From NCBI GenBank assembly GCA_963920765.1, contig OY987246.1, forward strand, positions 3,846,501 to 3,910,500: a DNA stretch of 64,000 bases, in the 5' to 3' direction. The notes under the pieces were generated by a model. It saw only the letters and a list, made by a program, of their open reading frames with translations, was not told the DNA's origin and made no database searches. This document shows positions 1,137 to 43,990 of this stretch, piece by piece. Both the position numbers and the translations under genes were made by a program. Origin of the DNA: Ulota crispa. Lineage: Eukaryota; Streptophyta; Bryopsida; Orthotrichales; Orthotrichaceae. The number at the start of each line of letters is the position of its first letter. Position 1 is the first letter of the stretch.

Positions 1137-2480
1137 TTAATGAGGCATTTCACATCTGATTTCCTCTTGAATGCGATCGACCTCCAAATCCAATTGATGG
1201 AAATAGATGTTCCCCAACATCGGAGACAAAACGCTTCCTTCAGGCATGTCCTCGTCCGTCGACGTGTCGATCCAAATGGTTTCCAGTTTAAACATCTGCC
1301 TCAACAGATCTAAAAAAGCTTCATCTTCAATTTGCTCAGCTAAGATTTTCAACAACCGGTGCTGCACGCTAACATGATCTGTTATGCGAACATCAAACTG
1401 TAAAAACCATGTGATCCCTTTCCAGCCGTACTTGACAGACTTGAGAGCAGAATGAACACTGGCACCTGGTCGAACCTTGGAAGAGAACACAGGTTCATAG
1501 ATCCTCTCCAAGACCCCTCGAATTGCCTCTTGAATGACTTGATCCTTGGGCCGGACAGACACCCACTGTCTCGCCTCTCCACGGCCCCGCTTTGCAATGT
1601 CAAGTCGTTCCAAAGGTTTGAACGAATAAGATCCAATCCGCAATAAATGTGCCGCTTCTTTGAACCAGTTCCAGTTAATCTCTCCTGAACGCAACGATCG
1701 GTTCTCCTTGGGAAGATGTGAGACTTCGAGTTCATTACTAGCTAAAGTCCAGTTCCTGCGCCGTTCGCTCAGTCTTTCATGCGCTGCTGCTAACACTTGA
1801 GGATCTCCGATTACAGCAACAACGTTGTCGACTTTGCCTTCGTTGTTTCGGTTAAATCTCCATAGTATGTCCTCTTGTAATTGTACGGTTCCGCCAGACA
1901 GTTCCTCCTGAAACTCAGTTCTGTTGCTCTCTTGATCGTAGCGAGATTTCATGTAGTAATCCGGATCTCTCTCGGTCTGTAGCTCACCTTCGCCGTCAAT
2001 CTGTCTGTACTCTTCGCCTGCTGCAGACGTACTTGCGTGCCGAAATCCTACAATTGGAAACGCTCTGACGACTGCTCCGTTCTGACAATCCACAATGACT
2101 TCAATATTAAAAAAAATCAACACGACGAATAAGAGCGGAGGATTCATACAAAGAGTGCAATTCCAGCTAAATGATGTATAGGCTGGTAAGCAAAACCAAT
2201 CAATTTCAGACTTCATTCGAGACGAAGGACATTCAATGGAATTGTATTCAAAGTCAGAAATGCAAACCTGCGCACAGAGATCAGATCCAGAGTACGTGGC
2301 CTCAATCTTCAAACACTTGTTCAGAAGCAGCCGTTGGTAAAAAATCGTCCGATTTCTACTAGACCCTGCAACCTCCTCCGAGCATTTCGACACCATCCGT
2401 GGCTCTGCATCCCTGCATGCTAATAAACCGCGTACCAGGGAGGATTGGTGGCGGCTCCTCCGCGCTGCCTGTCCCAGCAT
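1137..2480 (-). CDS. chimeric gene: Mpv17 first exon fused to truncated group II intron maturase
   Basis: The open frame is continuous for 447 codons. Residues 1-71 (2480-2268) copy the N-terminus of the Mpv17 gene at 10225, with an internal in-frame deletion. A GT at 2267 matches the Mpv17 intron 1 donor. A plausible acceptor (GATTGTCAG, ending 2082) would remove 186 nt in phase 0 and give a 385-aa protein. From 2081 the protein is a group II intron reverse transcriptase/maturase: NWFKEAAHLLRIGSYSFKP, then RPKDQVIQEAIRGVLERIYE, a motif-A-like QFDVRITD, and a MPEGSVLSPMLGNIYFHQLD block. It stops before the YADD motif and the X (splicing) domain, so it lacks the usual catalytic and RNA-binding parts. 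Residues such as FRHASTSAAGEEY look like the end of an older mitochondrial presequence. It may be a pseudogene or a short expressed chimera; I cannot tell which from sequence. Confidence 0.7.
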   Translation of the reverse strand: MLGQAARRSRHQSSLVRGLLACRDAEPRMVSKCSEEVAGSSRNRTIFYQRLLLNKCLKIEATYSGSDLCAQVCISDFEYNSIECPSSRMKSEIDWFCLPAYTSFSWNCTLCMNPPLLFVVLIFFNIEVIVDCQNGAVVRAFPIVGFRHASTSAAGEEYRQIDGEGELQTERDPDYYMKSRYDQESNRTEFQEELSGGTVQLQEDILWRFNRNNEGKVDNVVAVIGDPQVLAAAHERLSERRRNWTLASNELEVSHLPKENRSLRSGEINWNWFKEAAHLLRIGSYSFKPLERLDIAKRGRGEARQWVSVRPKDQVIQEAIRGVLERIYEPVFSSKVRPGASVHSALKSVKYGWKGITWFLQFDVRITDHVSVQHRLLKILAEQIEDEAFLDLLRQMFKLETIWIDTSTDEDMPEGSVLSPMLGNIYFHQLDLEVDRIQEEIRCEMPH

Positions 2481-2726
2481 CGCTAATCTGCTGCCTACAG
2501 CGTAACCCTAAATCCGGGAGGTCCACTACAAGAGCAGATGCATCTAAGATCTATAATCTTTCACGCTTCGTGGACATTACTTAAACCTAAACACCGGTTG
2601 ATCTTCCATAAACCTCAAAGTGTCGCCCTTAAAACAAACAATGTTCCTCGACTCGTTTCGGCACACAGTGTCAAGCTGCGTACAAGAAAGACCGGCCCTC
2701 CGAATTAACAGCATTTGAATGAGAGC
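2268..2726 (-). pseudogene. duplicated Mpv17 promoter and first exon
   Basis: Read on the minus strand, this matches 9774-10638 of the intact Mpv17 gene, from upstream sequence (ATTCAAATGCTGTT) through the ATG to the exon 1 donor. The copy holds one unit of an upstream repeat that is tandemly doubled in the intact gene. Inside exon 1 it lacks roughly 200 nt between SSRNRT and the part encoding LLLNKCL, but keeps the frame. It supplies the start codon and N-terminus of the maturase chimera. Confidence 0.85.
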
Positions 2727-2730
2727 CTAG

Positions 2731-4800
2731 TCCCTGCAAAACCAATGCACTGTTCAAGCAATGTCCCTCGCACCATGCAGCTACATATGCACATGCGAGA
2801 ACTAACTCTGAATAATTCGGGTTCTTGTCACAAAAAAATGGAGCACAAAGCATGTCAGCTTATCGTTTCCAGACTTTCATTCAATTAGCTTTGAACATTT
2901 CAAAGTCAACAGCATGTCATCTCCAGAACCATGTACTTGACTATGATTGCTTTGACCTTCCTCACTGCTCAAAACCTTCGTATGACCAAAAACACCTCTT
3001 CAAAATGCGAGCTTAGCATGTACAAGTTCTCACTGGTTTCGGGTTGCTACTTGAACGGCACTGAGTGATACTATAGCTTTCAGGTTTCAAGGGCCCGGTA
3101 AGCTGGGCCATCTGCCTTATGCTTTGATAAACGTATTGCTCTCCGTTGGATGAACACAATCATGCAAAAACGGCAACGAAAGAAACACCATCGCGCACTC
3201 CAGAAATTCAAACAACGGATATGTCAGAGAGTGCACGTGCATCGCCAGCCCCGCCAGGCATTTCGTCCCTCGGAAAGAACCGCACCGCTCCTAACATTGC
3301 TCCAGCTGCAACTCACTGCGAACAAGCACCGAAACTATGGCACACTCAACCAAACATACTCCTCCCGACTGAACAGAATACTACCGGAAAATGTAACAAA
3401 AACAATTTGATAATCGCGTGTGCATGAGCCCGAATTAGACCTATCTATCCTACAAAGCAGTCCATCATACACGATACTCTGCATCACTTAGTGCTACGCA
3501 TCGCTACAGCTTAATAAAAATAAGACGATCGTGCCATCTACACGGGTATCTCCTCAACATTCTCACACTTCTAATGCACGACTATTTCTTAGCTAAAACA
3601 GACCCCAATCGTTCCTCTCAGCCGCAACACTTCCGCCTTCTTACTATGCCACTACAACCTTAGAAGACAAGCCGAACAACTGGAGTTTCCCTCAGCCATG
3701 CGCAACTCCGGAGCGGCCAATCCCTTAAGCAGTCCCCTATCTCTTTCCGCAAGCGCATTGTAATGTGCTCCTAACCCTAAACCTCCTACCGTCCTGGAAA
3801 CACCTCGTTCTCATTGCATCCAAGGCATCCCGCGGCTCGCACACCATCACCTCATCCATCTCTGCCACAGAAGCGTACCTCAATCTCGAGCTCAACGCAT
3901 TCTTCTCGTTCGATCGATCGCCAACCTCAGTTACCGCGTCGTCTGCCGTTTACGACCGCAACATGCTCAAATTACTCCGCAAAAACGTCAGAAAGGAGCT
4001 CGTGGAGGTCTCGGATCTGTACGCAAGATCTCCGCCGAGAGAAATGGAAATCTCGAAGCCAATTGAGCGACCTCGAAGCGAAGGTTGCGAATCCCCGCAC
4101 TCCGGCTGGCTCCCACACGACGACGACCTCCATTCTCCGTGCTTTGAAAAACATAGCAGGATGAATAAGCAGAAGACGAACTCATCCATTCTGAACAGAG
4201 ATCGTCATAGTCGCTTTCATCCGACCAGGAATGACGTCATTGGCGTTTATCGGAGTTCTCAAGCATCCCTCGACGTTCTCTGGCGTTCTCCAAGAGGAAT
4301 GTGGAAAATTGGTAAGGGAGGAACAGCCATAAGCGTGAGTTTAAGGGTTTTGAACATGATGACTATTAATAAACATCTAGTAAATTATAGGATCCTGTTA
4401 GCAATAGAAAAATAACGAGTTTGCACTTTTGAATGTATTATTTGGATATTGTGAGAATAAGTTGTAAATTTTTAGAGAGCAAACTACCAATGTACCCATA
4501 ACTAACACTAAGGTTTCATGTTCACATGTTGTAAATTCTTGTAATTACATTTATTTACTTCCACGTATTTTTAAGATTTTAGAAGTGACAGTTATGGGGA
4601 CACTAACGCTTATGGGTGTTCCTACCTTAGAGAGAGATAACAACAAGGCACAATTGCAAATTTTCACTTTGGCGGTTTTGATGGTGACCAATTACTATAA
4701 GTTATTTGTTCTTATGGGACAATTTCAACAAGTTTATAATCCAATAAAAGTCTTACTTTTTCTATACAAAAGTAAGTTTGTTCAATTTAAAAAAGGAATT
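2731..4800 (-). pseudogene. duplicated CWF19L2 promoter, exon 1 and intron 1
   Basis: Read on the minus strand this aligns with about 20545-22544, upstream of and within the CWF19L2 gene. The copy of exon 1 is at 3241-3297 and still encodes MLGAVRFFPRDEMPGGAGD, with 7 of 57 bases different from the intact exon. Its donor is GC where the intact gene has GT. The copy ends just after the exon 2 acceptor (TTTTGCAG then GGA) at about 2731, where it joins Mpv17 upstream sequence. The rest of CWF19L2 is absent. The copy is interrupted by a TA-flanked MITE (4315-4627). Confidence 0.85.
4315..4627. mobile_element. TA-flanked MITE in the duplicated segment
   Basis: About 313 bp with inverted ends AGGGAGGAACAGCCATAAGC and AGGTAGGAACACCCATAAGC, flanked by TA on both sides. 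The paralogous segment near 20690 reads straight through (GGTAAAGAGAGATAAC), giving an empty site. The element therefore arrived after the duplication. Target and size fit a Tc1/mariner-type MITE; no transposase is present. Confidence 0.8.
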
Positions 4801-4929: not shown

Positions 4930-5830
4930 CCACAAAGGTGGTTGTAATAGTGTCAAGAGCACTTGCAGAGGCTGCCGCATACATACACCGCAGGGATGGC
5001 ACGCATCTAGAGCCCGTACTAATTGTAAGGCATCATCCGACTGGCATCCTTAACAATGCAAGGACAACGTTGGCCTTCAATGTGGCATTTAGGACATGAG
5101 CATTACAAAGAGGCACAAGTCTGCAACGCGATTTCTTCAAAAAACAACAACAAGTTGGTGTAAAAGAAAGACAACAGAAAGCTTGTGCTATCCACAATGT
5201 TAACACAAGGATGGGCTCCTTGCCATCCAAGATTTTTGCCACCACTAACCTTTGTTGTTCCAATGGCGCCTTGTTCAACGTGCCCACGAGGGACATCAAT
5301 CTTGACAATAGCTCATTTTGATTCGGCAGCTGCTCAAGCTTGAATTGGAACACTTTGAAGCCGGCTTTTCCCCAGACTGAGCCTTCTCCTATAACATTGT
5401 ATAGCCCATCATACAAGTAGATTTGCTTTGAAGAGCTTTGAATGGTGGCAATGCCAAAATGGCCCCAGATCACGCGCACAGGCTATTCCATGTATTAGAT
5501 ATTTTTGAAGGCAAGGTTTCCATGTTTTTCTTTGTAATTGCCCACATGAGACTTACCCTTTTTGTCCCTCCCACTCTCTCCAGTGTAGACAAACGTCATG
5601 CCTTTATCTATATCATCCTTGTCTTTGTGAGACACCACAACGTTGAACCCAGTCATCTTCTCATTGAAAGTGGAGTACGCAATCTTGGTGTTGGAAATAC
5701 CGCTCGCTCCTTTCATCTAGTCGATTATGTTCATCCCTAGCTCATCACTAGTTCATCCATGTTTGATGTATATAATCCACTGCTCAATGTACATACCACA
5801 CAATTGATATTCTACAACAAAAAGAGAGGT
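4930..5830 (-). pseudogene. SUVH-type histone H3K9 methyltransferase pseudogene (SRA and pre-SET)
   Basis: On the minus strand 5716-5495 encodes an SRA/YDG core (VVVSHKDKDDIDKGMTFVYT, then GNYKEKHGNLAFKN). In the same frame from 5479 come RVIWGHFG and YLYDGLYNVIGEGSVWGKAG with GFKVFQFKLEQLPNQ, the usual end of the SRA domain. In-frame stops lie between these blocks (TAA and TAG at about 5497-5483, TAG near 5719). Near 5110 the reading shifts frame and a pre-SET-like string follows: CSCPKCHIEGQRCPCIVKD, then AVYVCGSLCKCS, with further stops. The catalytic SET domain is missing; similarity ends at about 4930. SUVH proteins bind methylated DNA and methylate H3K9. This copy cannot encode one. It is intron-poor where readable, so it may be a retrocopy of an intron-poor parent or simply decayed. 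Confidence 0.8.
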
Positions 5831-8732: not shown

Positions 8733-9800
8733 TTAGCTTTTTCCAATACGCTGAAACCCTAGAAAAAAGCTTGTACTCCAGCATTGCATTCCTAAGCTCG
8801 GAGGTCTGACACTCGCATTTTTCAAACTCCGACAGACAAGGCACTGTTGCATCGGGAGTGTCGCCAACGAAGACCGCATTTGCATCGAATGGCGATGGAT
8901 TTTTGAAAAGAAAGAGAAAGTTAAGGTAGTTCATTCAGCATAACCACGACAAAAGCTTGCCCAATTGTTTGATTTCAGGGAATGCAGGGTTTGCAAATTT
9001 CCTACTTTTGAATGGGACTTTGATGAAATGGCGTGTGTTAGTTTGGACGATTTTACACTTGTGGTCATTCCGGGCACCTTTTCTGGTTACGAATTATCTC
9101 TTACCGTTCTCTGCAATTGAGTAAATTTGACGAAGGATGATGGCCGCATTAAGCTTTTGATTCCCAAAATCTGGATTAGGGTTTCGGTACTAGGGTTTCG
9201 GTAATAGGGTTTCTGGTTCGCATCGAAGGATTTTAGATTCCTTTTAGCGGATGTCGCAGAAAGCAAATGCAAATGGTTTATAATTCTGTACAGCGTTTGG
9301 ATCTCGACGATGTCTTCTGAGTTGGCGGATGTAGCACTTTTGCGTTGTAACTGGGAATCGAGGGTTTTCAGTGATTAAATTAAGTTGCGAAGTATGGAAT
9401 TAGGAACCGTGGCGATCATGAAGTTAACCTAAATTGTACGATTGATTTTGAACGTCTGATCATTCTTGCAGCCGCGCTTCAACGTTGTTGAAAAAATGTC
9501 AGTATTCCTGTAGCTGCTGGTGGTGCCGGAGATCGCTGTCTACTCCCACATTTGGTGCGGACTTCGAACCTCATTTGTCCGACACACTTCCTGCTTTACT
9601 GTATTGTTCGTACAATAGACTGTCATTTCAGGTTGATACTGTGGTAACGAAGAGAGTGACTATCGTAAGGGTTTGGAGGTTTTTTCTTTACCTAAAGTAC
9701 TGTTTTTTTGATGCGCTGTGGTCATGGATGAATGCTACAAATTCCATGATCTGCAATTTTTGGCTGAACGAGTATTCAAATGCTGTTGATGTGAAGTGCC

Positions 9801-10172
9801 GGTCTTTCTTGTGGGAAGCTTGACACTATGTGCTCAAACCAGATGAGGAACAATGTTCCTTTCAAATGCGATATATCGAGATTTTGTGAGGTTAGCTTAG
9901 GTTTAGGTTTAAGCAATGTTCACGAAGTATGAATGATTGTAGGGTCTTGTATGCATCGGTCTTTCTTGTAGGGAGCTTGACAGTATGTGCCCAATCCAGA
10001 TGAGGGACAATGTATCTTTTAAAGGCGATATATCGAGATTTTAGTAAGGTTAACTGAGGTTTAGGTTTTAGTAATATTCACGAAGCATGAAAGGTTGTAG
10101 AGTCTTGTATACATCTGACTGAGTAATGATCACGAAGCATGAAATGTTATAGGATCTTCTATACATCTGACT
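9801..10172 (+). repeat. 157-bp tandem duplication upstream of Mpv17
   Basis: Units start at 9801 and 9958 with GGTCTTTCTTGT and include GGAAGCTTGACA, GATATATCGAGATTTT and CACGAAG words. A third, partial unit (about 50 bp, CACGAAGCATGAAATGTTAT) follows at 10124-10172. The duplicated Mpv17 promoter at about 2560-2713 has one unit, so the tandem growth probably post-dates that duplication. It lies directly upstream of the start codon and could carry promoter or 5' UTR elements. Confidence 0.85.
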
Positions 10173-10224
10173 GTGCAGTGGACCTCCCTGATTTAGGGTT
10201 TGGGCTGAAGGCAGCGGTTCAGCA

Positions 10225-13200
10225 ATGCTGGGACTGGCAGCGCGGAGGAGCCGCCAACAACAGTCCTCCCTGGCACGCGGTCTGTTAGCTCACAGCGGTG
10301 CAGCGCCACGGGTGGTGGTGTCGAAATGTTTGGAGGAGGTTGCGGAGTCGAGTCGAAATTGGACAAGCCTTGCAAGCTTCTACGAGGTGGTGAAGGCGAG
10401 AGGCGCAGCAGATAATGGAGTTCGCGAGTTTCTTTCTGCTGTGAGATGTGGTGGCCGGCGAGCAATCTCAAGCTCTCCAAAGGTTGCTGCTGGAGTGGAG
10501 ACTGTAGCCATCCCTGCTGGCCCAGCTACAAAGCTCAACTTTGTGTCATGGTACTTACGGAAGCTGGATGAGCGGCCGCTTTTGACCAAGAGTTTAACAG
10601 CTGGAACCATTTACACCGGGTCTGATCTTTGTTCTCAGGTTTGAGATCTCATCCTTTTCAATACCGTTCAATCAAGGGAATTGATATATGCACACCGGGG
10701 GCTTGATATTTGCACACCCCCCTTGGGGTAAATTTTAGATTTCTACCATCATAAAGCTGAATTTGAGAATTTTGAATTTAGATTTGGACTTAGAGACCAT
10801 GATTAAGTCTAAAACCATAAAAAAAGTTGCAATTCAACAACACCCAATGAAAAAGTTTAGCTAGGGGAAAAGTGTTACTTTTACTTTTGTTTGTAAAAAA
10901 AAGATAAGCTTTTTCATTGGATGTTGTTGAATTGCAACTTTTTTTATGGTTCTAGACTTAATCATGGTCTCTAAGTCCAAATCTGAATTCAAAATTCTCA
11001 AATTCAGCTTTATGATGGTAGAAATCTAAAATTTACCCCAAGGGGGGTGTGCAAATATCAAGCCCCCGGTGTGCATATATCAATTCCCTTAATCAAATGT
11101 ACGGAATTCAAAACTGAATAGTGACGTTAATGTTGCATTGTTTCAACTCTCTCTGATATCACATTTTGGCGTATTGTGAGAAGGGTAAATTTCATGGATA
11201 CCCCTGAAGTTTGCAATATTTACATACATACCCTTGCTTTTTCAGAAATTTCACAAATGCCCTTGGACCATCATTTTTAGGAATTTTTTTATGTTGTGCT
11301 TTGTACTTCCTTCATGACCAATGTTGAAGAAGGGAATGTAATGAAACAAAAGAGAAGCAACGTGCGTACAAAGGATGAAGGGAAATGGCATGCACAACAA
11401 AACAAACGCCTGAAAATTTTGGTCCAAGGGTATTTGTGAAATTTCTGAAAAAGCAAGGGTATGTATGTATATATTGCAAACTTCAGGGGTATCCATGAAA
11501 TTTACCCTTCTCACGAAACGCCAGAATGTGATATCAGAGAGAGTTGAAACAAGGCAACAGTGACATCACTATGCAGTTTTAAACTCCGCACATTTGATTG
11601 AAGGGAAAATTTCATGGGTACCCCTGAAGTTTGCAATAATTTCATAGATTCCTCTGCTTTTCCAGAAATATCAAAAATGCCCTTGGACCAGAAAATTTAG
11701 GCGTTTGTTTAGTTATGCATGTCACTTCCTTCTCCCTATGTGCATACACTTTTTCTTTTCAGTTATGCTTGCGCGCAAAGGAAGAAGGGAATTGGCATGC
11801 ATAACAAAACAAACACCTAATTTTTTTTGGTCCAAGGGTATTTGTGATATTTCTGAATAAGTAGGGGTATCTATGAAAATATTGCAAAATTCAGAGGCAT
11901 CCATGAAATTTTCCCTTCAATCAAATGTGCGGAGTTTAAAACTACATAGTGATGTCGCTGTTGCATTGTTTCAATACTCTCTAATATCACATTCTGGCGT
12001 ATTGTGAGAAGGGTAAATTTCATGGATACCCCTGAAGTTTGTCATATTTGTATAGATACCTCTGGTTTTTCAGAAATTTCACAAATACCCTTGGACCAAA
12101 TTTTCAGGCGTTTGTTTTGTTGTGCATGCCACCTCCCTTCCTCCTTTGTGTGCACGTTACTTCTCTTTTGTTTCATTACGTTCCCTTCTTCAACATTGTT
12201 CATGAAGAAAGTACAAGCACAACAAATAAATGCCTAAAAATGATGGTCCAAGGGTATTTGTGCAATTTCTGAAAAACTAGGGGTATGTATGTAAATATTA
12301 CAAACTTCAGGGGTATCCATGGAATTTCCCCTTGTGAGAATGTGTGCCGGGCTGCACACAACGTTCTTACATCATGCTCTGAAGACATCAATTAGGGTTT
12401 GGAATGTCGAGTCTGTGATACAAAAGAGGTCCTAGTATAACTTGTTACACTTAGTTGGTTTTGTTTTGTTAAGTCTGAGATGTGTTGGGAAATCATAGCT
12501 GAATCCTTTCTGACGTGGACTTTGATCAGGGCCTGTCTGCTTATACTGCAAGCGAAGAGGAGCCAGTAGCGTGGGATTCATTTCGGAGTGCGAGAATGCT
12601 TGCTGTGGGCTTGTTCATGTCAGGACCTTTGTTGCACCTTTGGTTTGGTACAGTTGGCAAGCTTATTCCTGGTCGCGACATACGTAGTACGCTGACAAAG
12701 CTTGTACTGGGACAAATCTTTTTTGGTCCTCCTTTCTGTGCTGCCTTTTTTGCCATAAACGCCTATGCCCAAGGTAATCAAAAACTTCCTTGAAAGTCAT
12801 CATCACCATTTCTTTTGTTTCAGGACTTACTAGCTTGAAATTTGAGAGTACTCTTTTCTCGTCCTTTCGGAGGGTACTCTCTTTGTGTACAAAATCTCTG
12901 CCATTTGCTTGAAACATGTCATTTGTGAAAAACATCAACGTTGGTTATGTACATGGTGACTTTTACTACTTCAAATAGAACACGATTGTCTTATGCTTCA
13001 TGAGCTTATTTGTGATACTGTGTCTCATGAGTTGCATGGTAGTTTAACACCCAATAAATATGGGTTTTGTACTGTCACTTTCAGGAGAAAGAGGTGATCA
13101 GATAACTACAAGATTGGGGCGAGATTTGATACCTACGATAAAGAATGGCCTTATGTATTGGCCTGCGTGTGATTTTGTCACATATCGCTACGTTCCTATT

Positions 13201-13636
13201 CCTCTTCAGGTTTGTCTTCGTCCGGCTCACCTTTTGCATCGAAGTTGGTGGTCCTTGAGATTGACAAAGGTCTTTCTGTTGGAGTTGTTTCTTGTGTTCT
13301 TGACAATCTGCATTACAATTCCTACTTTGTCAATCTTTAGAGAACACTCATGTCATGTAATTTCTGATTTTTTTGTTGTTGATATTTTTTTATTTTTTTG
13401 GATTTTGTGTTAATTTGAAACTTTATAGCTCTGTTGTTTAGCATCAGGATAAAGGCTTTTCTAAACTTTGGTATGCTTGTGAATTCTGATTATTAGTCTG
13501 TGCTTGTGTGCAGCCACTCGTAAGCAACTCGTTCTCCTTCTTGTGGACCACCTACTTGACTTTTATGGCAGGTAAGAAGGCTGCGGTGTCACCATTGCCT
13601 AGCAATTCCGAAACTGATTCCAAGGAGTCTCCATGA
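10225..13636 (+). CDS. Mpv17/PMP22 family membrane protein
   Basis: Four exons: 10225-10638, 12530-12773, 13085-13209, 13514-13636, all GT-AG with consistent phases, giving 301 aa. The first roughly 100 residues are Arg/Ser/Ala-rich (MLGLAARRSRQQQSSLARGL) and look like a mitochondrial or plastid presequence. The family domain begins at FVSWYLRKLDERPLLTKSL and continues with WDSFRSARMLAVGLFMSGP, a GLMYWPACDFVTYRYVP block and the family-typical PLVSNSFSFLWTTYLTFMA near the C-terminus, with about four hydrophobic segments. Mpv17 proteins sit in inner mitochondrial, plastid or peroxisomal membranes and act as channels or in membrane homeostasis; the substrate is not established. The start ATG is supported by the conserved copy at 2480. 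Intron 1 (1.9 kb) is full of transposons. The tail after the domain is short and Ser/Pro-rich. Confidence 0.92.
10674..11090. mobile_element. foldback MITE, MULE-like, in Mpv17 intron 1
   Basis: About 417 bp, nearly all of it two long inverted arms around a loop at about 10860-10910. The ends are GGGAATTGATATATGCACAC and its complement. The left flank is TTCAATCAA and the right flank TT-AATCAA, which reads as a 9-bp target duplication with one base lost. An uninterrupted TTCAATCAAATGTGCGG at 11917 acts as an empty site. A related copy is at 42161-42573. It has no coding capacity. Confidence 0.85.
11091..12010. repeat. alternating inverted array: arm, MITE, inverted arm, MITE, arm
   Basis: A 92-95 bp host-like segment (from TTCAATCAAATGTGCGG to TTGTGAGAA) occurs at 11091-11182 (+), 11508-11602 (-) and 11916-12010 (+). 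Between the copies are two MITEs of one family: 11183-11507 and 11603-11915. Both have ends like GGGTAAATTTCATGGATACC and an inner CCCTTGGACC. Each MITE is thus flanked by inverted, not direct, copies of its surroundings, so each MITE with its arms forms a palindrome of about 510 bp. Confidence 0.85.
12011..12331. mobile_element. MULE-like MITE with perfect 9-bp target duplication
   Basis: About 321 bp with terminal inverted repeats (GGGTAAATTTCATGGATACC left; GGGGAAATTCCATGGATACC on the other strand right). It is flanked by TTGTGAGAA at 12002-12010 and again at 12332-12340. It is the same family as the two MITEs in the adjoining inverted array. A 9-bp duplication is the usual mark of the Mutator superfamily. 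No transposase is present. Confidence 0.9.
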
Positions 13637-14209
13637 TGGAGTTTTTTACTTTTAGTTCCAACTGGAAAGCCATACCGAATACATGCAGTTGGCTCTTTCC
13701 ACTTTGTAGGAGATTAAACAGTTGTTTAGTTCTAGATACGAAGTCGCAATTTCGATTTTTATATGGAAATAGATGAAGTAGAAAAGTAAATTGGATGCAG
13801 GTCATTCGGCAGGGTAGGCAGGTTCATGATATGGGCCAGCGTTGTGTAGTTCTTTTACTACATCTGCTTAATCAGCCTTCTTGTGTTTTTTGTATTATAG
13901 CGTGGTTACTAAATTTTGTGTTGATTTAGTTTTAATCGTGACAATTCTTGCTCAAGGCACTAAATTGTTGAGATTGATTCAAATTCTAGTATATTCGTAC
14001 TTCAAGTTGTTTTGAGTGCATTAGTGTTTCCTATTTTCAAAGCCAACAACTTCTTTTAGAAGGAAGTCTTGTGATCTTTCTGTTTTATCTTTTGAGTCTG
14101 AGGTTCCACTGTCAGAATAATTTATTTTTGTCTCCTACTAATTTCCTAGTAACTAAGAACCTTTTTTGTGGTCATTTTCTATTCTGAGCAAAGAAAAACC
14201 CTCGGCTGT
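13637..14209. other. Mpv17 3' region and intergenic DNA
   Basis: Follows the Mpv17 stop codon; probably 3' UTR then spacer. No clear polyadenylation signal could be fixed and no other gene is seen. Confidence 0.4.
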
Positions 14210-16018
14210 TTAACCCAAAAGGACCAACTATCCCCTCACGGGACAAATGGACCTTGGGCATGTACCTATGACTAAACCAATTTTTATAAAATTTTTAATC
14301 TTTCACAGGTGGTGGGGAATTCAAAGATGTACTATGGCCTCCAAGCTAGTTTCGTTCACCTTCGTTTACCCTTCAAAAAATTTGGTATTTTATAAAATAA
14401 AATTAGCATTTTAGAATCTTGCACCACTATCTTTTAATTCTTACTCAATCCCAATTAAGCATACCAAATTATGAGTTTCAAAAAATCAAAATCCTATTTT
14501 TGGTGAATTGTTTTACACAATATTTTCATGATTTTACATGATAAATGATTAAAAAAATTTGGTAATGAATTTTTGAGATTCAATTGCATAGATGCATAGG
14601 AAACATCCACACACACATCTTTTCTTCTAACAAGCATCTCCAAAAAAAATTATAATTCCTTCTATGTAGATTTTAACATTGGAGTGGTCATGATCAAATT
14701 TTGTAGATTAGATATTTCTCCATGGTGATCATATTTTTTTGTTTGACTTATACAATATACCTAGGTTTGAATCTTTGAGCGTAACGATATGGTTATTTTG
14801 CCAAAAACTAGTTAAAAAAACATAAATCTTTATTTTAAAAATTTGATCATGATCACTCTAATGTTAAAATCTACATAGAAGGAATTATAATTTTTTTTGG
14901 AGATGCTTGTTAGAAGAAAAGATGTGTGTGTGGATGTTTCCTATGCATCTATGCAATTGAATCTCAAAAATTCATTACCAAATTTTTTCAATCATTAATC
15001 ATGTAAAATCATAAATATTGTGTAAAACAATTCACCAAAAATAGGATTTTGATTGTTTGAAATTCAAAATTTGGTATGCTTGATTGGGATTGAGTAAGAA
15101 TTAAAAGAAAATGGTACAAGATTCTAAAATATTTATTTTATTTTATAAAATACCAATTTTTTTGAAGGGTAAAAGAAAGTGAACGAAGCTATCTTGGAGG
15201 CCATAGTACATGCACATCTAGCTTTTTCTTCAATCTAACATTTATTGAAGAAGTTATGCATGAAATTCTGAAAAACGGGTGAGGGTGGGCAATTTGGGCA
15301 GCCCTAAAAACTTATTTAACAATTGCATTTAAAAAAAATAAAAATCTGAAATTAGTTCTTTAGATTTTTATACAAGTGAGAAACTTTGAATCATTTGATT
15401 TTGATTGATGAGTGAGAAGTTTTAGTTTGTGGGTAGATATGGGACTCCTAAACCTCCATTCCTTTTGCCCCTTGTAAAATTTGAAATTATACTATTCTTT
15501 TTTACTTTTTTCTTTCCAAGTTGTAGTAGACTTAAATTCCTTGGTTTTCACCATTTTGATTAAAGTAATTCATATTTCTCAATTTTACAACAATCATCCT
15601 ACTTTGCCTAATGTATCTGCAAATTTCATGGCCTTATGGCATTACAAGATTTTACAAAGTATGATTCTCACCTCCAATTCATTTGAAAATTCTCCCACGC
15701 TTACCTAACTTGATCTTATACATGAAAAAAATAATCCTCAACTTTGCGTACAGCAATTTTTTTTATATAGGACAGAGGTCAAAGGCTTCTAAAATTTTTG
15801 GGCAATAGGGAAAAAAAAAATTTGTCATTTCACATGTCAATATCTCACTCCTCTACATCTAAAATGAGCTAATTTTTTTCCCAAAAGTACCTCCCATAGT
15901 CTAGGGCAAAATCCTATAGTTGGATTTTCAAAAAAAAAACTTTTTTCCTACTTTTATACTCATTCCCTCAAAAGTGGCAGTTTTCACAGAAAAAAAGGCT
16001 TGATCCTTTAGGGGTTAA
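14210..16018. mobile_element. TTAA-flanked element, interrupted by a foldback element
   Basis: Starts with TTAA and CCCAAAAGGACCAACTATCC. The sequence outside the nested element (to about 15450) matches the left arm of the 57971-58673 element, including ACATTTATTGAAGAAGTT. A candidate right end is GATCCTTTAGGGGTTAA at 16002-16018. The matching right arm itself is not recognisable, so the right border is tentative. Confidence 0.5.
14332..15206. mobile_element. long foldback element with TA flanks
   Basis: About 875 bp. It starts CTATGGCCTCCAAGCTAG and ends in the complement (GGAGGCCATAG), with arms of about 350-400 bp that match almost base for base, for example CACACACATCTTTTCTTCTA at 14611 and its complement near 14910. 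TA flanks both ends. The related element at 57971 lacks this insert (TTCAAAAACCTATGTGGGCA), which serves as an approximate empty site. No coding capacity was seen. Confidence 0.8.
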
Positions 16019-16779
16019 ATCAAAAAATTTGTAGGCATCCTAAATAGGTAAGTTTTTTATTAATGCGTTTTTAATTCTAGAAGATGATCACAATGGTTAA
16101 AGCCTTGCCTACATAACATTATTTCAATAAATTGATCATTATCTTTTTCTCCTCATTATTGGCCTTTCAATGATATACAAACTGTAGAAACAACATGTTT
16201 CTGTTGAATAATAAATTTGTTTTTAAATTATTCTCTTAATTCTATTTATGATAAATTTTGTGCTTTGATTTCGAAGGCTACAAGTTGGCTTTATTTTCCA
16301 TGGTATAATATTATAAGTATTCTAATTAATGGAAATAAAGTATGATCAGGTATGAAGTTGTGTAACCCTAGTTTTCTGAGTTATTAAGGGCAAAATGATT
16401 ACTTGGGCAAAACGTTGGGTTTATTTGGAGCCAAAATTATCAAAAAGTGCTACTATGTAAGCAAAATGCAATGAGGATGCAAGACTTGGAAAGTAGTGCA
16501 AAGTGCCAAGTCCCAACTCTTGACTTTATAGCATTCAAAATTCTCAAATTTTAGTGGGACACATAGTAGGACATGGTGTGCAATGACCCTTGTGGTTTTA
16601 ACATTGTGTAAAGAAAATCACACAATATGACATGCAAGAATAAAAATCTTATACATATGCATGATTCTTGTTAGTACCTTGTTTTCTCATTTTTTTATTT
16701 TACATTTGTGTTTTTGCAATATCAAAAATGTCCCTAATTTAACACTATAAAACAACAATAACCAACTTGCTAATCCAAT
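16019..16779. other. AT-rich spacer between Mpv17 and ASH2-like gene
   Basis: No gene or repeat recognised. It lies downstream of both flanking genes, which converge here, so it should hold both 3' UTRs. Confidence 0.4.
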
Positions 16780-19595
16780 TCACTTTGTTTGTTCATCGGA
16801 GCTTTCTACAAGATCATTGACAAGCAAGGGAACTCTAGAAACCTTCTTCCCAATAGTTTCACAATCTTTTCCAATAACCTTTTTTTGTTGCAAAACATTA
16901 CAAATGCAAGGTTTTGTGGTTATTATGGGGCATGGAAATAGGCCAATTGTATTTCTACCTCTTCCTCCAAAAAATCCTTTTTTTCCATACACTCTAATCC
17001 GTTTTCCTTTATCTTGTTCTTCAAGTATTTGTTTAGTTCGAGATGCACTTTCATTTCCGCTAAGAAATTCACTAGAACCACGCTTAGCCGTCATTCGTTG
17101 CAAGCCATTGGATTTGGTTCTACGTACCCATTTCTTCGTAGTGTTTATAGAATCGGTTGTTGTTGAAGATGGTTCTATTGGAGCTAATGAAAAAATTTGG
17201 GGGTTTTTTGGAGGTAAGGCTTTTGACATGGGTTGGGGGTTTGGATGACCATTCCAATCTTTGGGTGGAAACAAATAATTGGGTCCAAAATTAAATTGGA
17301 CTGAGCATTTCTTTTCTGGGGACGGAAGTGTGTACATGGAAGCAGCAGGAAAATATTCTCCACCTAAAATGTCCTTAAATGCAATGCCTTGCCATACACC
17401 ATTCTTGAAAAACAAGATCTCACTCCCTATTTTCAAATCAAAATTCCTTTTTATATTAAAAATTTCTATATATTTTGGGTTTTGGTTATCAAAAAAATTG
17501 TTATCTTTAATGAAACACAAACAATATTTGAGTAAATTAGTGTAAATTAATTAAATTATATTGAAGGGTACTACTACTGCCATCACAATTTTTGCTATTG
17601 CCACATCAACCAACACCTCAACCAACAGTTTTGCTAAATGCCATCACATGCTACACGCCCTTTATTTTTACCACCACAGCATGTTCTTACCACAATGCAC
17701 TTTTATCAACCACTAGTGCACTCTATATAATGTTCACTAAAGGCAATTGCAATAGGTGTTGGAGTGTTTTATCACAATCATGTAACTTGGAAACAAGCTT
17801 GCCTTTTAAACATAAGCAGTGCAAGCATCATAGCTTTCAAAGGCACTAACAATATCAACCTTCATGAGAAAAATACATTAAGCAAAAAGTGGCAAAGACA
17901 GCAATGGGCATGCATTGTGTGGTGGCATTAACATAAACTATTGATTGGGGTGCATTTATCAAAAATTCTAGTGACAATAACAATTACCCATATTGAATGA
18001 ACAAACACAAAATGTGTCTTCAACTTTTAAATGTAAGTAAATGCATGGTAAAATAAATGTTTTTTTTTTAAAATACCCGGGATGCGTTTTGGAAGACAAT
18101 CTTTTTTTTCTAATGGTATAGAAAGTGAGCTTTTGCTTGCTTTGTATACATAAAGATCATAATTTGGAGCATATTTGGCACCGTTTGGTAAATTTATGTA
18201 AAATCCAATAACATCACCTTCAAAATAAGCTTTTCCATATGGCTCTCGAATAGCTTTGTGCACTTTGCTTCCATCAACATCTCTATTGTGAAAAGAAAAA
18301 AAATCCATCAATTTTTGCTAAACCCTAAAAAAATTAAAATGGGGATTTTTTTTTTTTAATTTGTAAAAGATGTGCTTACCTATATGCATAGCTGTTGCTA
18401 TCAAATCCAACTGGAGCTTGTAAATCACCTTTCCAAGTACTCCATCCAAGACGAGTGTGCCCTGTTTTTCCTAAAGCTTTTATAATAATTTCATAATACC
18501 AAGCACCTTCCATCACACCACAAGTGGCTCGTACCATACGGTAGCCTTTTTCACTACTTGCTTGTAATTTGTCCATTGATAATTCTACTTTTTCAGCCTT
18601 TTGATCCTACTTTCAAAAATATTTAAACAATCAAAACATCATATTAAAAGCACATATCAACAAAATTCATGAAAAGAAAAATAGAGTTCAAAATGATTAG
18701 AAAATAATCAAACAATGAATAAACATGATCAAAAAATGACCAAACAATGACCAACAATGATTGGATAATGATTTAAATGAGTACTTTTGATCATTGTATA
18801 GTTGTTGTGAACACAATTTTTCTTCTAGAGTTTTATGTTCTAATGCAATTGTAAAACAAACTCAACAAGATAATATAATTTTTTTGCATGTACCTTTGAT
18901 AAGTGAATTCCATTCTTGTCTTCCAAAAAATATTGTTCATTTATATCAACTTCAAAAGTTTTGTCAACTTGATCTTCATTTGGAGTTTTCAAAGGTCTTG
19001 CTTTCTTAGTTCCTTTGCGGGTGGAGGTTTTAGTCCAAACATTTATCCTCTTTTTGGGCTTTTTTGTAACAACATTTTTATATGTATCATCTAAGATTTC
19101 ATATGACATAGATGTTTCTTTATTTGTTGGAACCTCAATGAAAAGTGCATCATTTTTTTCTACTATTTGCAATATAACATGATATAACAACAAATGTTAG
19201 CATAAAATTATCAGATAAAAAAACATGAAATTTCAATCAAATTGATTATAAGATAATTATGTTTGACAACTCATTCATTCTAACAAATGCATGTATACAT
19301 ATATGGATTGCATATATTTAAATATATGTTTCTTAGACAAAAAACACATGAAAATATTTTTATATTTCTAGATTTTTTCAAACAAAAACTTTTTTTCTTA
19401 GAATATTATATTCTCCATATAGAATAAAAAGAAAATATTGTTGTACTTGCCATTTTCATGTTCAGCACTTTCAAAGTTGGTGTTAGCAAGTGATGCATCT
19501 TCTATTTCAATCTTTTTTATTTGTGATATTTTAGGTTCATCGTCTAAGCAATATGGATCATCATCTATTGGCATATCTCCAAAATCATCCATCAT
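16780..19595 (-). CDS. ASH2R: ASH2-like (TRAUCO-type) SPRY protein of COMPASS H3K4 methyltransferase
   Basis: Five exons, read from high to low coordinates: 19595-19451, 19162-18894, 18606-18380, 18282-18077, 17426-16780, giving 497 aa. The N-terminus is acidic ([20 protein letters not shown]), then a basic linker ([20 protein letters not shown]). The SPRY domain covers about residues 159-340: [65 protein letters not shown] and [14 protein letters not shown] are close to ASH2L and Arabidopsis TRAUCO. A 155-residue basic, Ser-rich tail follows. ASH2 is a nuclear core subunit that stimulates MLL/ATX-type H3K4 methyltransferases with WDR5 and RbBP5. No PHD or winged helix is seen, as in plant homologues. 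Intron 1 seems to use a GC donor (AATG/GCAAGT). The gene is markedly more AT-rich than CWF19L2 next door. The reading frame has no breaks. Confidence 0.92.
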
Positions 19596-20710
19596 GTTGT
19601 TGATTAAAAATTACTATTACTTTAAATTTGTTGATTATTGGATGCCAAAAAAATAATTGATCAGTCAATTGGTTTTTAAGTGCAAATATAAAAATTTGCA
19701 TAAGCTGTTTTTGGTTTGAAAATTCGATTTGGCTAAAAAGTTCATTTGAATTAGAAGAAATCTTAATTACACATAAAAATTATGATAAAAAACCGTAGCT
19801 TTATCGCTCTATCTACTACCAAATCTCAACTTTTTCTACTCTCGATATATCATAAGATTTCAAAAAAAGACCATAAATGGAGGACTATTGAAAATGACAA
19901 TATTGATGCATAAAACAAGCATGTGTTATTATTGATCACAATTGTTGAACCTTCTACAACAAAATTATTTTTTCATAATCTCAACAAACACAATTTTAAA
20001 TTTCAGGTTTTTTCTTTTTTTATTATTCGTTATGATCTGCTAAATAAAAGGCAACTAAGGACTTACAAAATCAAATAGCATTCTACAAGGAGAGATATAG
20101 ACTCAAGAATTTTTTATAATACTTCAAAAGATAGGTTGGAAATTATTAAAAGAAATCAAACAAACTTTTTCAGTTGGAGTTGTAAATATAAAAACAACAC
20201 GAAGTATGCATTTGTTGCATTGCGCATACACCGTCTTCAAAATTCAAGATTAATAGGCATATGATCAATTCAAACCTCTCTCATTGCAATTTCCTTATAA
20301 ATAAATGCCCAATTTTTTTCAATTATGCAACCTTCATTGAGCAACTTCCACAAGCAAACTTGTGAACCCATCTCAAAACACATTTGCAAGCTCAATGTCC
20401 TTCAAAGGCAATCCCAATACCCAATCAGAGAGAGTTGATTGTGTACAAAACGTGAAGTTCTTGCAATATCTTAAGGCTTCAATGTTAATTGTATAGTCTT
20501 CAAAATATTGAATTTCTTGGATTTTTTCAAAACTAAACAAACTTGCTTTTGTATAGAAAAAGTGAGACTTTCATTGGATTATCAACTTGTTGAAATCGTC
20601 TCATAAGAACAAATACAGTAATTGGCCAATTTCTTATCGAAACCGCCGAAATGAAAATTGCAGTTGAGCCTTGCTGTTATCTCTCTTTACCAATTTTTCC
20701 ACATTTTTCC
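19596..20710. other. spacer between divergent ASH2-like and CWF19L2 genes
   Basis: AT-rich on the ASH2 side. From about 20545 it matches the inverted copy at 4632-4800. It should hold the promoters of both divergent genes. No conserved motif was pinned down. Confidence 0.4.
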
Positions 20711-20850
20711 TGGAGAACGCCAGAGAACGTAAAGGGATGATTGAGAACGCCAGAGAACGTCGAGGCATGATTGAGAACATCGAGGAATGGTTGAGAACGC
20801 CAGAGAACGTCTAGGGTTGCTTGAGAACGCCGGGAACGCCAGTGACGTCA
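20711..20850 (+). repeat. 30-bp minisatellite in the CWF19L2 promoter
   Basis: About five imperfect units of GAGAACGCCAGAGAACGT plus a variable spacer such as CGAGGCATGATT; the third unit is shortened. The duplicated promoter (about 4240-4300) holds only one to two units (rich in GTTCTCTGGCGTTCTC), so copy number has changed since the duplication. Confidence 0.85.
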
Positions 20851-21974
20851 TTCCTAATCGGATGAAAGCTTCTGCGATGATATCTGACCTCAATGGATGA
20901 CTTTTCGCCGTCTATTCATCATGCTGGCTCGGCACTTCGGTGATCGTCGTTTGCGAGCCAGCCGGAAGCGCGGGGATTCGCAATCTTCGCTTCCAAGTCG
21001 CTCAATTGCCTTCGACAGTTCGATTTCTCTCGGCGGAGATCTTGCGTACGGATCCGAGACCTCCACGAGCTTCTTTCTGACGTTTTTGCGGAGCAATTTG
21101 AGGGATTCGGAGTCGTAAACGGCAGACGACGCGATAACTGAGGTTGGCGATCGATCGAACGAGAAGAATGTGCTGAGCTCGAGATTGAGGTACGCTTCTG
21201 TGGCAGAGATGGATGAGGTGTTTCGTGTGCGAGCCGTGGGATGCCTTGGATGCAATGAGAACGAGGTGTTTTCAGGACGGTAGGAGTTTTAGGGTTAGGA
21301 GCAGATTACAGTGCAAGGGATTGGCCACTCCGGAGTTGCGCAGGGCTGAGAGAAACTCCAGTTGTCCGGCTTGTCTTCCGAGTGTCGAGAGGCACAGTAA
21401 GAAGGCGGAAGTGTTGCGGCTGAGAGGAACGATTGTGGTCTGTTTAAGCTAAAAAATAGTCGTGCATAAGAAGTGTCAGATTGTTGAGGGGATACCTGTG
21501 TAGATGGCACGATCATTTGGTTGTTTTGAGCTGCAGCGATGCGTAGCACCAAGTGATGCAGAGTGTCCTGTATGATGGACTGCTTTGTAGGATATATAGG
21601 TTTAATTCGTGCTCATGCACACGCGGTTATGAAGTAATTTCTGTTACATTTTCCGGTAGTAGTCTGTCCGGTCGGGAGGAGTATGTTTGTTTGAGTCTAC
21701 CATAGTGTGTGCAGTTCAGAAATAGCTTCTTTCATAGCCTGTGATACCTCCAATCTGCTAGATAATAGCGGACTTATATCCTGTTATTCTTCTACATTTG
21801 TCATCTTTTGGTTTTCTTTGATTTTTTCTTTCTCTTCTTTGATGTTTATAGGATTACTAGGACTTGTAGAACCTTTCTTTTAAGCATCTTCGAGTCAGCA
21901 GTCATCGTAAAGCATATGTTTCTGAACACCTTTTCCTTCTTGATGCTTGTTCGCAGCGAGTTGCAGCGGGAGCC
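20851..21974 (+). promoter_or_regulatory. CWF19L2 promoter / 5' region
   Basis: GC-rich 1.1 kb upstream of the start codon. It is strongly conserved in the inverted copy at 3300-4240, although neither copy has a long shared reading frame, which suggests a promoter or UTR. No TATA box position could be defended. Confidence 0.5.
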
Positions 21975-24900
21975 ATGTTGGGAGCGGTGCGGTTTTTTCC
22001 GAGGGACGATCTGCCTGGCAGTGCTGCCGATGTATGTACACTCTCTGTCATCCGTGGTGTAAATTTCTTGAGTGCGCAATCGTCTTTCTTTCCTTCCTTG
22101 CTGCTTTCTCATGTCTGTGTTCATCCAACGGAGAGCAGAGCTTTTATTAGGGCACAGGGTAGATGGCCCAACTTACTAGGCCCCTGAAACCAGAAAGCTA
22201 GAAGATCACGCAGTGCCATTCGAGTTGCAAGCTGGAAACAGGGAAAACTGCTACATGCCAAGGTCTCATTTTGAAGAAGTGCCTTTGGTCAAACGAAGGC
22301 TTTAAGCAGTCAGGAAGGTTAAAGGAATGATAGTTCAGTACGCGGTTTAAGAGAAGACACGGTGGTGACTTGGGAATGTTCAGAGCTAATTGAATGAAAG
22401 TCTAACAATGATAAGTTGACAATCTTTATGCTCCATTTTTTTTGTGGCAAGAACTCGAAGTGTTCAAAGTTAGTTCTTGCATGTGTACATGTAGTTGCAT
22501 GGTGCAAGGGACATTTCGTGAATAGTGTGTTGGTTTTGCAGGGACATGAGGAGCGCAAAGGAGAGAAGTCTTTGAAGAAACGGAAGCATGGATCGAAGGA
22601 AGGGAAAGATGATCACAAACGAAAATCCAAGCACAGTAGAGAAGAGAAGCGGAAGCATGGGTCCAAAGGAGATCAGAAGATAAAAGTAAAGCCCAGGCAC
22701 AGGGAAGAAGCAGAAGAAGAGAAGGAATATAGCAATGACGAGAGTGACGAGTCATCTGAAGGATCAGGTACTTTTCTTTTATGTGTGATGAAGTCGTCTT
22801 GTCAGTTTCGAGATGTATATATCGAGGGTTGATGACCTAATGATAATCATACGATTACTCGTAGAGAACCTACTGTTAGGATCTGCTCTAGAATTTCTAC
22901 TTCGGCAGGGTTTTGCGCAATTAGGATATCTGCGAGGCGGCTATTTGTGGAAATTATCACAAACTTTATGTTGATATTGTGTACCATCTTATTGCAGAGG
23001 ATTACAAGAGCAGGAAGGAAAGCCTTGGATTGCAAGAGAGTAAGAGAAAAGAAGCAGGATTAGAATGGATGAACCTTGCACCAGAACGACCACCCGCTCC
23101 GAAACAAGATGATGCGCTACGTCTTGAACCAGAGGTTAGCTGCCCGGTTTAAGCCCAATCTATATCTGTTCCCCATCTTTTTTCAGGTTTGTAGTTCGGC
23201 TTCGAATACTGGCTTGGGCTCAATTTCTTAAACATCTTTTTTGTGTCTCGCAGAAACCAGTCAGCAATATTAAAGAACTGAACCCCTACTGGAAAAATGA
23301 CGGTAAAGGACTGCCTTCAGAAGAAGAAAAGGGGGGATTGCGTGCAGGAGGTTCCGGGAGGTTGCCACCACCTCCAGGCATTGGTGATGGAGGTGCTAGT
23401 TGGCGAATGAAAGCATTGAAAAGAGCACAAGAGCAAGCTGCGCGAGAGGGGAGGAAGCTGGATGAGGTTTGTTTTCTAGGGTACTGTGTGGTGATGTAGT
23501 ATGTATGGGCAAAGCATGACAAGTCGTATATTATTAGTGTATTGTGCTTAATGTTGTTGACATGTTCTCTGAGGAGTTGACATGATATTGGTTTGCCAGG
23601 TTGTTGAGGAGCGATGGGGATCGTTAGCCACACTGACCAACAGCGTTTCAGTTCAAAGGGCAGCGCATGCAAATGCGCACATGCACGCAAAAAGAGATAG
23701 AACGAGGAGAGCCACTGATGACGCTCCTCGAGTTATGGAAGGAAGGAAGGAAGAGGAGGCCAACGAAGGAGAGGATGCGGATGATAAGAGAATAAGAACA
23801 GGGAGTAGAGACTACTTAAAAGATGTCAAAGCAAAAGATAATCGCATGAAAGAACCACAGGTAGACCGAAAATTGTCATGGAGAAATAGAGGAAGCATTA
23901 GACCTGAAGATGCAGCTGTACTAAAGGCTGCCGCTCAAACCTACAACAAATTTAGCAACGATGGAACTTACTTGAAGAACGTGGAGTCTTCCACGCCTCA
24001 GGAAGAGTTAAATCATTTATCTCGTGTCTCTACTGTGACGAGCACTACGACAACTAGGATAGAAACCTCCAAGACTGTGACTGAGGGAGATACCAAGTCT
24101 AATCACTCCAGTGCGCGCGTGGCTACCGTTTCAAAGTCGTACACAAGAGTGGAAGCCCTCAAGGATGATAAAGTGACCAGTTCATATGAGGCCAAAAATG
24201 CTGTAATTTCTGAGCCTGTTGCAAGACTGGATGCTTCTAATGCTGGTGGAAACAACGACATGGGACCACCATCTACGAGGGCGGTTGGTTCTGAACGAAA
24301 GAGCGAAGGTAGTAGTGTGCAGGTGCAAAACCTCAGTAGTAATCAAATTGCAGCGAAGGTGATGCAGTTGCGGTTACGAGGCAAACACAAAGAAGCAGAC
24401 GAGCTTCAGGTATGTTGACAAATATTCTCGCGTCATTTAGGCACTTGTTGATGTGGATAAAACCAATGTTTTAACTCACTAGCGCCGCTTTGCTGTCGCC
24501 AGTGGTAAGTTCCATTATCTAGTTGGAAGTTAAGTAACCATTGTTTGCCTGCACATGCAAGGTAATTATTGGGTAGTAGGCTTTTAAGTTGGCCAATGCT
24601 GCTAATTGGTCGGTGCTGGTAGATTTAAAACTGCAAGCTATTAGTGTAAACACAACTAATTTCACTTGTCCAAAAATCAGGGAGTTAACTGGTGGTAATG
24701 AACGTAAACTCCTTGCAGATTAGTTTTTGCGGCAGTTAGCACATTTTGCTAACTACACAACTCGGGCAATGTGGATTACTAATAATTAATTCTAGTTCAT
24801 TAATTGGCGATACTCGATTGGTGCGAGCGGGGCCTGAAAATTTTGTGTTCATGTTGCGTAGGATGAAATCCTCGCTGAGAGCATTCTGTAGATCACTATT

Positions 24901-42573: not shown

Positions 42574-43439
42574 CATCTTTTAAAGCTTATAAAAATATTT
42601 TATAAGATTGTTTTTTTAATTCATTTGGTTAAAAATAGAAGGAAAATTACTAAAAATACCCTTTAAGTCTTTCAAAATATCAAGTTTACGCCGAAAATAT
42701 GTGAAATATAAAAAATAGTCCTTATTTATTGTAGGAATATCAATTATACTCCTATTATTTTGGAAAATTAATAAAAAAACTCTTCTATTTTGAAATGTTA
42801 AATATATCCTTGTATTATTTGAAATGTAAAAATCACCTTTGGTTTCTTGTAAGAATTTGCATTAAACTATACACTTGGTTATCATGTAACACAAAGATAT
42901 TTTTGGTACTTTTAATCCTTAAGGGACATTTATGATTTCTTCAAAGAATTGAGGAGCATCATTTATATTTGTTTGTAAAGAAATTTTGGTATTTAAAACA
43001 ACAAAATGTTGTACTTTTTATATAAAATCTTATTGAATTAGTGAAGTTGTGTCCAAAAGTACCTAGATCAACAAAAAACTGTTGAGTTTTTTGTTATTAT
43101 GGTCATGTTTTTACTTGACTTTAAAGGTTGCTAATTTTAAATTTTACCAAATTGTGAAAAGTAAAGAAAATAAAACCAGTCAATGTACACTCAAACTTCT
43201 AAAAGATTCTTTTTTTTTGAAAACTTCTTTTATTTTTTAAAACTTCATAAAAATTTAATGAGGTCCAAAAAGGTTTTAGAAAGATTTCAAAACAAACCTA
43301 AACTATTGTGATAGTTTTTTTGAAAGTATTTTGATGATTTACAAAAAGATTCCTAAAGGACTCTAATTCAGTCTAAGAGATTCTATTTCTATAAGTATTT
43401 TGAAGTACTTTAACAAATTCCATAAAGATTTTAAAAAGA

Positions 43440-43990
43440 TTCTCAAAGATTCCAAAAAGATTCTTGAAAATTCTCAAAGATTTTCAAAGATTTTTTGAAT
43501 TTCAAAAAAGATTCTCAAAGATTCCAAAAAGATTCTCAAACATTCTCAATTGTTCTCAAACATTTTCAAAGATTCCAAAAAAACTTGAAAAGATTCCCAA
43601 AGATTCCAAAAGATTCTCAAAGATTCCTAAAAGATTTTCAAAGATTTTCAAAGATTCTCAATTGTTCTCAAACATTCTCAAAGATTCCAAAAAAATTTGA
43701 AAAGATTCCAAAAAGATTCTCAAAGATTCCTAAAAGATTCTCAAAGATTCTCAAAGATTCTCAAACATTCTCAATTGTTCTCAAACATTCTCAAAGATTC
43801 CAAAAAAACTTGAAAAGATTCCAAAAGATTTCCAAAGATTCATGAAGATTCCTAAAAGATTCTCAAAGATTCTAAAATCTCAAAAAGATTCTTAAATATT
43901 CTTAAAAATCATGAAAAGATTCTCAATGATTCCCAAAAGATTCTTGAAGATTCTTAAAGATTCACAAAAAATTCCCAAAAGATCTTCAAA
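43440..43990. repeat. minisatellite of AAAGATTCTC / AAAGATTCC units
   Basis: Dozens of imperfect 9-12 bp units (TTCTCAAAGATTCCAAAAAG) with higher-order repeats around TCAATTGTTCTCAAACATTC about every 120 bp. It creates long open frames rich in Lys, Phe, Ser and Ile that are by-products of the repeat. It lies inside CACTA element 1. Confidence 0.9.

Follow-up and report, generated by a model that had tools for sequence, protein, structure and literature searches.

Has part of a nuclear maturase gene acquired a new start from another gene? The question is raised by a 64,000-nucleotide stretch of the moss Ulota crispa genome (hereafter, the window), in which the first-pass annotation described a fragment of a group II intron maturase carrying the first exon of Mpv17 as its N-terminus. 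That observation is confirmed: a copy of Mpv17 exon 1, together with its splice donor, lies in frame with the reverse transcriptase (RT) part of a maturase. On the minus strand, positions 2480-1137 form a single open frame of 447 codons (447 aa), composed of exon 1 (2480-2268, 213 nt, 71 codons, with the ATG at 2480), a putative GT..AG intron of 186 nt (2267-2082) and exon 2 (2081-1137), which encodes the maturase part and ends at the stop at 1137, before the YADD region. The junction 2268/2081 is exact and joins the two exons in the same phase. The frame also stays open with the intron retained, as had been claimed, the intron being a multiple of three. The donor occupies the position of the Mpv17 intron 1 donor (CAG/GTTTGC vs CAG/GTTTGA in Mpv17). 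An AATAAA polyadenylation-like signal lies at 844-849 on the same strand, 287 nt past the stop; two more AATAAA-type words follow 853 and 990 nt past the stop, so that the first could be due to chance. The locus is nuclear: the window corresponds to 3.85-3.91 Mb of a 25.6-Mb contig, and the plastid genes are found on a separate contig, C157, with frames for chlB-type protochlorophyllide reductase, matK, a photosynthetic reaction-centre protein (presumably psbA, by its place) and ycf2. This gene content points to a non-flowering land plant, and plastid gene order and contigs the size of chromosomes would fit a moss.

The source of exon 1 lies in the same window. When the first 6 kb were compared with the whole window using blastn, 2347-2581 matched 10364-10122 at 80% identity (E = 1e-53) and 2236-2333 matched 10672-10573 at 69% (E = 1e-7), the two matches together reaching from the 5' flank of Mpv17 through exon 1 into intron 1. 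The Mpv17/PMP22 gene occupies 10225-13636 on the plus strand, with four exons in our reading (10225-10638, 12530-12773, 13085-13209 and 13514-13636), which have GT..AG borders and encode 301 residues followed by a stop; joined, they match Mpv17_PMP22 (PF04117, E = 5.9e-16). Its intron 1 has been enlarged by inverted-repeat elements (10671-12341). Exon 1 of Mpv17 is 414 nt long and its copy 213 nt, the middle part having been lost in frame (net 201 nt). Since just the first exon was copied, the chimeric frame does not match PF04117, and its sole Pfam match at E-values up to 1 is RVT_1.

The copied block turned out to be bigger than described in the first-pass annotation, and includes the Mpv17 5' flank joined to the inverted 5' end of a CWF19-like gene. 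The flank copy (2535-2720, minus strand) is 76-77% identical to the original at 9774-10117. Next to it, 2734-4794 on the minus strand corresponds in inverted orientation to 20524-22541, where the CWF19-like gene has its upstream region, first exon and first intron; blastn pieces of 81-90% identity and an alignment establish the copy. The CWF19-like gene with its upstream region occupies 20524-25663 on the plus strand, with exon 1 at 21975-22031, exon 2 starting at 22542 and later exons partly mapped; one of the later exons (24989-25663) matches CwfJ_C_1 (PF04677, E = 1.3e-40). Exon 1 of the original has its ATG at 21975 and reads MLGAVRFFPRDDLPGSAAD, and the copy (3241-3297, minus strand, ATG at 3297) reads MLGAVRFFPRDEMPGGAGD, with the GT donor changed to GC. 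Homology to the CWF19-like gene stops about 4 nt into its second exon and is followed by about 9 nt of filler and then by the Mpv17 flank. In the originals, the Mpv17 and CWF19-like pieces stand in the opposite order, approximately 10 kb apart; we infer that a tandem copy or a circle of roughly 9774-22545 would give the new CWF19-like/Mpv17 junction. Judging from its content, the block is a DNA-level duplication and not an RNA-based copy, because it includes introns and flanks. The donor exon is thus found elsewhere with a homologous flank and intron start, as in exon shuffling. The copied block is interrupted by a dispersed repeat of about 318 bp (4313-4630), which has matches on contigs C1-C10; among the 59 matches listed, at least 38 are near full-length copies (84-92%), with 40 of the 5320 first-look candidates scored. 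Directly outside the block, on the minus strand (5033-5482), there is a lone SAD/SRA-domain fragment (PF02182, E = 2e-8). A further repetitive feature of the window is a long array at 43417-44000 of the 10-bp unit AAAGATTCTC, with about 55 copies and 70% matches.

What, then, is attached to the copied exon? Exon 2 matches the group II intron RT/maturase model TIGR04416 with an E-value of 2e-21 (76.5 bits, below the curated whole-protein cut-off of 300) over model positions 36-204 of 353, and displays homology to the RT fingers and palm. The whole frame matches LtrA over residues 274-441 (E = 2.8e-20), and exon 2 matches PF00078 with E = 2.4e-5 at 24.6 bits, under the cut-off of 29.6. Exon 2 carries the conserved LSP..NIY..LD stretch. 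As the first-pass annotation had it, the maturase part ends before YADD and domain X: the frame stops earlier, and neither is found within it or in the downstream sequence searched. Structure prediction for 242 residues alone yielded a mean pLDDT of 39.6, too low to be informative.

The relatives of this fragment were collected from the genome (275 Mb in 157 contigs), with the best candidates being scored in each search. The frame had nine protein matches, namely, itself, the Mpv17 exon and seven others, the best of which is 46% identical; among the candidates scored, the Mpv17-derived N-terminus matched the Mpv17 gene alone. The best other maturase matches by E-value are L010 (C3:13.24 Mb), which is 46% identical in the RT part, and L011 (C4:4.09 Mb), which is 37% identical there. 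A DNA search with 1-2090 gave eight other matches among the best candidates, all in the 3' flank of the maturase and none in the maturase part. The full-length nuclear parent that the first-pass annotation had proposed as a reference for Ka/Ks therefore cannot serve as one: the search for a recent parent found none, even the closest maturase match being just 46% identical, and for the maturase part dS is saturated against both L010 and L011. In a tree of eight rows, the chimera, L010 and L011 group together with support of 93/96, just below the mark set by the tool, and the order among the three is not fixed. The branch leading to the chimera (0.68) is no longer than the range of the two paralogues (0.60 and 0.90). 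Domain X (PF01348) has 17 matches in the genome, none of them at the chimera, L010 or L011, so that the three have in common the absence of a detectable domain X. Unlike the chimera, both paralogues run through a YGEE/FGDD-type motif; L010 goes little further than its YGEE motif, and L011 continues into an additional C-terminal part.

Stretches of the copied block that are presumably neutral indicate how far the copies have diverged. The K2P distance is 0.228 over 490 sites of CWF19-like intron 1 and 0.276 over 214 sites of the Mpv17 5' flank (2694-2481), values as similar as a single event would give. For the spliced frame of 385 codons, we simulated decay under neutrality at 0.115 substitutions per site, corresponding to equal rates in both copies, and also at 0.05, 0.08 and 0.14, with indel rates of our choosing (0.0023 and 0.0051 per nt, the higher being equivalent to 9 gaps in 879 nt over two lineages). 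At 0.115 per site, no stop arose in 0.35% and 0.42% of 6000 runs (P ~0.004), and neither a stop nor a frameshift in 3 or 0 of 6000, depending on the indel rate. At 0.05 per site, a setting in which the chimera side evolves less than half as fast, 8% of runs were stop-free, and 0.5% or 0 of 6000 when frameshifts were counted. Because stop-free survival is so improbable under neutrality (P ~0.004, or 0.08 if decay is slower), selection has probably kept the frame open, either as the chimera or as a longer gene truncated late. This disfavours a plain old pseudogene, the alternative to the reading of the first-pass annotation.

Taken by itself, exon 1 stayed stop-free in 44% of neutral runs. Its gaps (3, 3 and net 201 nt) are without exception divisible by three, as against none of the 13 gaps in the aligned flanks, and over 67 codons dN is 0.177 and dS 0.445, a ratio of about 0.40 (bootstrap 0.19-0.86); constraint on Mpv17 itself, without any on the copy, could account for this low ratio and for both of the 3-nt gaps. 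For the first piece of exon 1 taken separately the interval of the ratio is 0.13-1.38, and the second piece, with dN of 0.28 and dS of 0.84, exceeds the divergence of the neutral stretches. Codon usage speaks for coding in exon 2 (z-score 4.6, with 7.3 for the held-out L010) and less strongly in exon 1 (2.5), but not in the intron frame (1.2). Within exon 2, the C-terminal half scores 4.6 and the N-terminal half 1.7, and in the latter another frame is slightly higher (0.04 vs 0.03). Taken together with the simulations, these values suggest that the maturase domain was probably under selection until recently, or still is. In a core of the copied upstream region that was chosen post hoc, the copies differ at 29 of 373 sites, slightly below what constraint on the original alone would leave (P = 0.043); over the copied upstream region and 5' UTR as a whole the difference is 77 of 785 sites, not below the expectation for a free copy (P = 0.26).

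The explanation that in our view best accommodates these observations, and to which we give somewhat more than even credence, is a chimeric nuclear gene. The 5' ends of two neighbouring genes were duplicated at the DNA level, the CWF19-like gene contributing its upstream region, exon 1 and intron 1, and Mpv17 its 5' flank and exon 1 with the beginning of intron 1; the duplicated piece now sits inverted ahead of a divergent nuclear maturase-like gene. Transcription would start from the copied upstream region and translation from the Mpv17 start codon, and splicing of the Mpv17 donor to the acceptor at 2082 would yield a protein of 385 residues, with the N-terminus of Mpv17 and the front of the RT domain. 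In proteins of the LtrA type, fingers and palm have a role in RNA binding. If imported, the product may likewise bind group II intron RNA of an organelle through the fingers and palm, as would other nuclear maturases; since YADD and domain X are absent, it would not be expected to carry out reverse transcription. Selection would have held the frame open for much of the time since the duplication, whether it acted on this chimera or on a longer gene with a late 3' loss. The stronger proposition, that the locus encodes a working organelle protein belonging to a plant clade of maturase relatives that lack domain X and act as plain intron-RNA binders, is doubtful in our estimation. The chimera retains the arginine-rich start of Mpv17, with a net charge of +3 and a maximal moment of 0.47, and of 64 internal control starts, 20 equal or surpass it in both respects. 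Of the exon-shuffling reading, the in-frame copying of Mpv17 exon 1 and its donor ahead of an RT domain thus stands, whereas by simple measures the organelle presequence that it could have handed over is unremarkable. The further suggestion that the short maturase is a dominant-type form is speculation. As judged from the DNA, the locus is a real chimera, probably once or still coding, with a putative function.

The rival that survives best is that we are looking at a gene that died recently, and we consider it possible though not likely. A longer nuclear maturase, perhaps with the Mpv17 front already in place, would have lost its 3' half, the frame being open for lack of time to decay; what an open frame tells about selection would end with the truncation. 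The missing half was searched for with paralogue proteins against 9 kb beyond the window and 12 kb of the window, with L011 and PF01348 across the genome, and with a profile of seven paralogues over 12 kb (best E = 0.62), and was not found in any of these searches, which agrees with such a loss together with the absence of YADD and domain X from the frame. A dispersed repeat in the 3' flank (426-629, with at least five other copies at 68-82%) and the lost GT donor of the CWF19-like exon copy also fit a decaying locus. However, a short form would not be abnormal in this clade, given where L010 ends and that it has no PF01348 match, and the polyadenylation-like word past the stop argues weakly against this rival.

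The second rival concerns splicing and is compatible with the other readings. The 447-codon frame might be read through, or translation might start at one of the in-frame ATGs of the putative intron (2216 and 2147), in which case the Mpv17 exon would matter little; we regard this as rather unlikely. Without exon 1, the maturase would start inside the intron or at 1952, where exon 2 has its first ATG. The 62 intron codons are more open than expected, being free of stops in just 1.6% of 5000 shuffles, which leans against splicing and makes read-through possible. Moreover, the layout of the frame does not speak independently for splicing, since the putative intron is open and its length divisible by three; any two exons would fit in frame one time in three, and besides the acceptor at 2082 there are other AGs in the same phase. 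On the other hand, 2267-2082 has the base composition of an intron (36% GC and 42% T, compared with 47% and 24% for exon 2) and a codon usage unlike that of coding sequence (score -0.20 at the z-score given above), and its donor matches that of Mpv17. Comparison of the rest of the putative intron with Mpv17 intron 1 gave a score of 41, which was reached by 10 of 300 shuffles and in 9 of 640 control windows, two of them overlapping the target; in the intron-to-intron comparison, the value was reached by 48 of 550. That a copied exon merely came to lie beside an old pseudogene fragment by chance, with a long frame that means nothing, is very unlikely: duplicated fragments and repeats are common in this DNA and exon 1 alone is often open by chance, but neutral survival of the whole frame is improbable, exon 2 has kept the LSP..NIY..LD stretch and a coding-like codon usage, and the branch of the chimera is not accelerated.

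How does the chimeric gene compare with known systems? Nuclear maturases of plants, nMAT1-nMAT4, are described as having a domain X that is conserved and an N-terminus that targets them to mitochondria (PMC3927076, PMC10012718), and mosses are reported to have many maturases, with 12 in Physcomitrella (PMC3927076). Like these and the nuclear maturases of mosses and lycophytes described there, the chimera stands by itself in the nuclear genome and encodes a group II RT domain that is degenerate. Unlike nMAT proteins, it lacks domain X and YADD, and its N-terminus is a copy of the first exon of another gene. Captured first exons are known to serve as targeting peptides; in Populus, the transit peptide of rpl32 comes from SOD1 by exon shuffling (PMC8018952). 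In both cases, the first exon of an existing nuclear gene was copied ahead of another coding sequence. In Populus, however, the recipient is a plastid gene that moved to the nucleus and received a plastid transit peptide, whereas here it is a fragment of a maturase and the targeting is putative; in addition, the piece copied here brings along the 5' end of a second gene. In the literature searched, which was covered in part, no maturase with an Mpv17-derived first exon was found. Acquisition of a new gene start by part of a maturase gene is, on the sequence evidence, a credible case, although unproven. If true, it would be a datable one, in which a single DNA-level event newly equipped a nuclear splicing-factor gene with promoter, start codon and first intron, and possibly with a targeting peptide, the Mpv17 and CWF19-like donor genes still lying close by. 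A further pointer is to a clade of maturase derivatives with no detectable domain X; such a clade would test the minimum of a maturase needed to assist the splicing of group II introns.

The genome searches also brought up other maturase loci. On contig C7, two maturase genes (L013 and L014) are 95% identical (dN 0.024, dS 0.046); each has a domain X match and adjoins frames that look PPR-like by eye. They are probably the result of a recent segmental duplication, and pieces of a third copy, 93-95% identical, are found on C1 (L022). Also on C7 (6539001-6545000), a 522-codon frame matches PF01348 with a strength little short of that of plastid matK and adjoins frames of plastid-like size on this chromosome-size contig, and is possibly plastid DNA in the nucleus.
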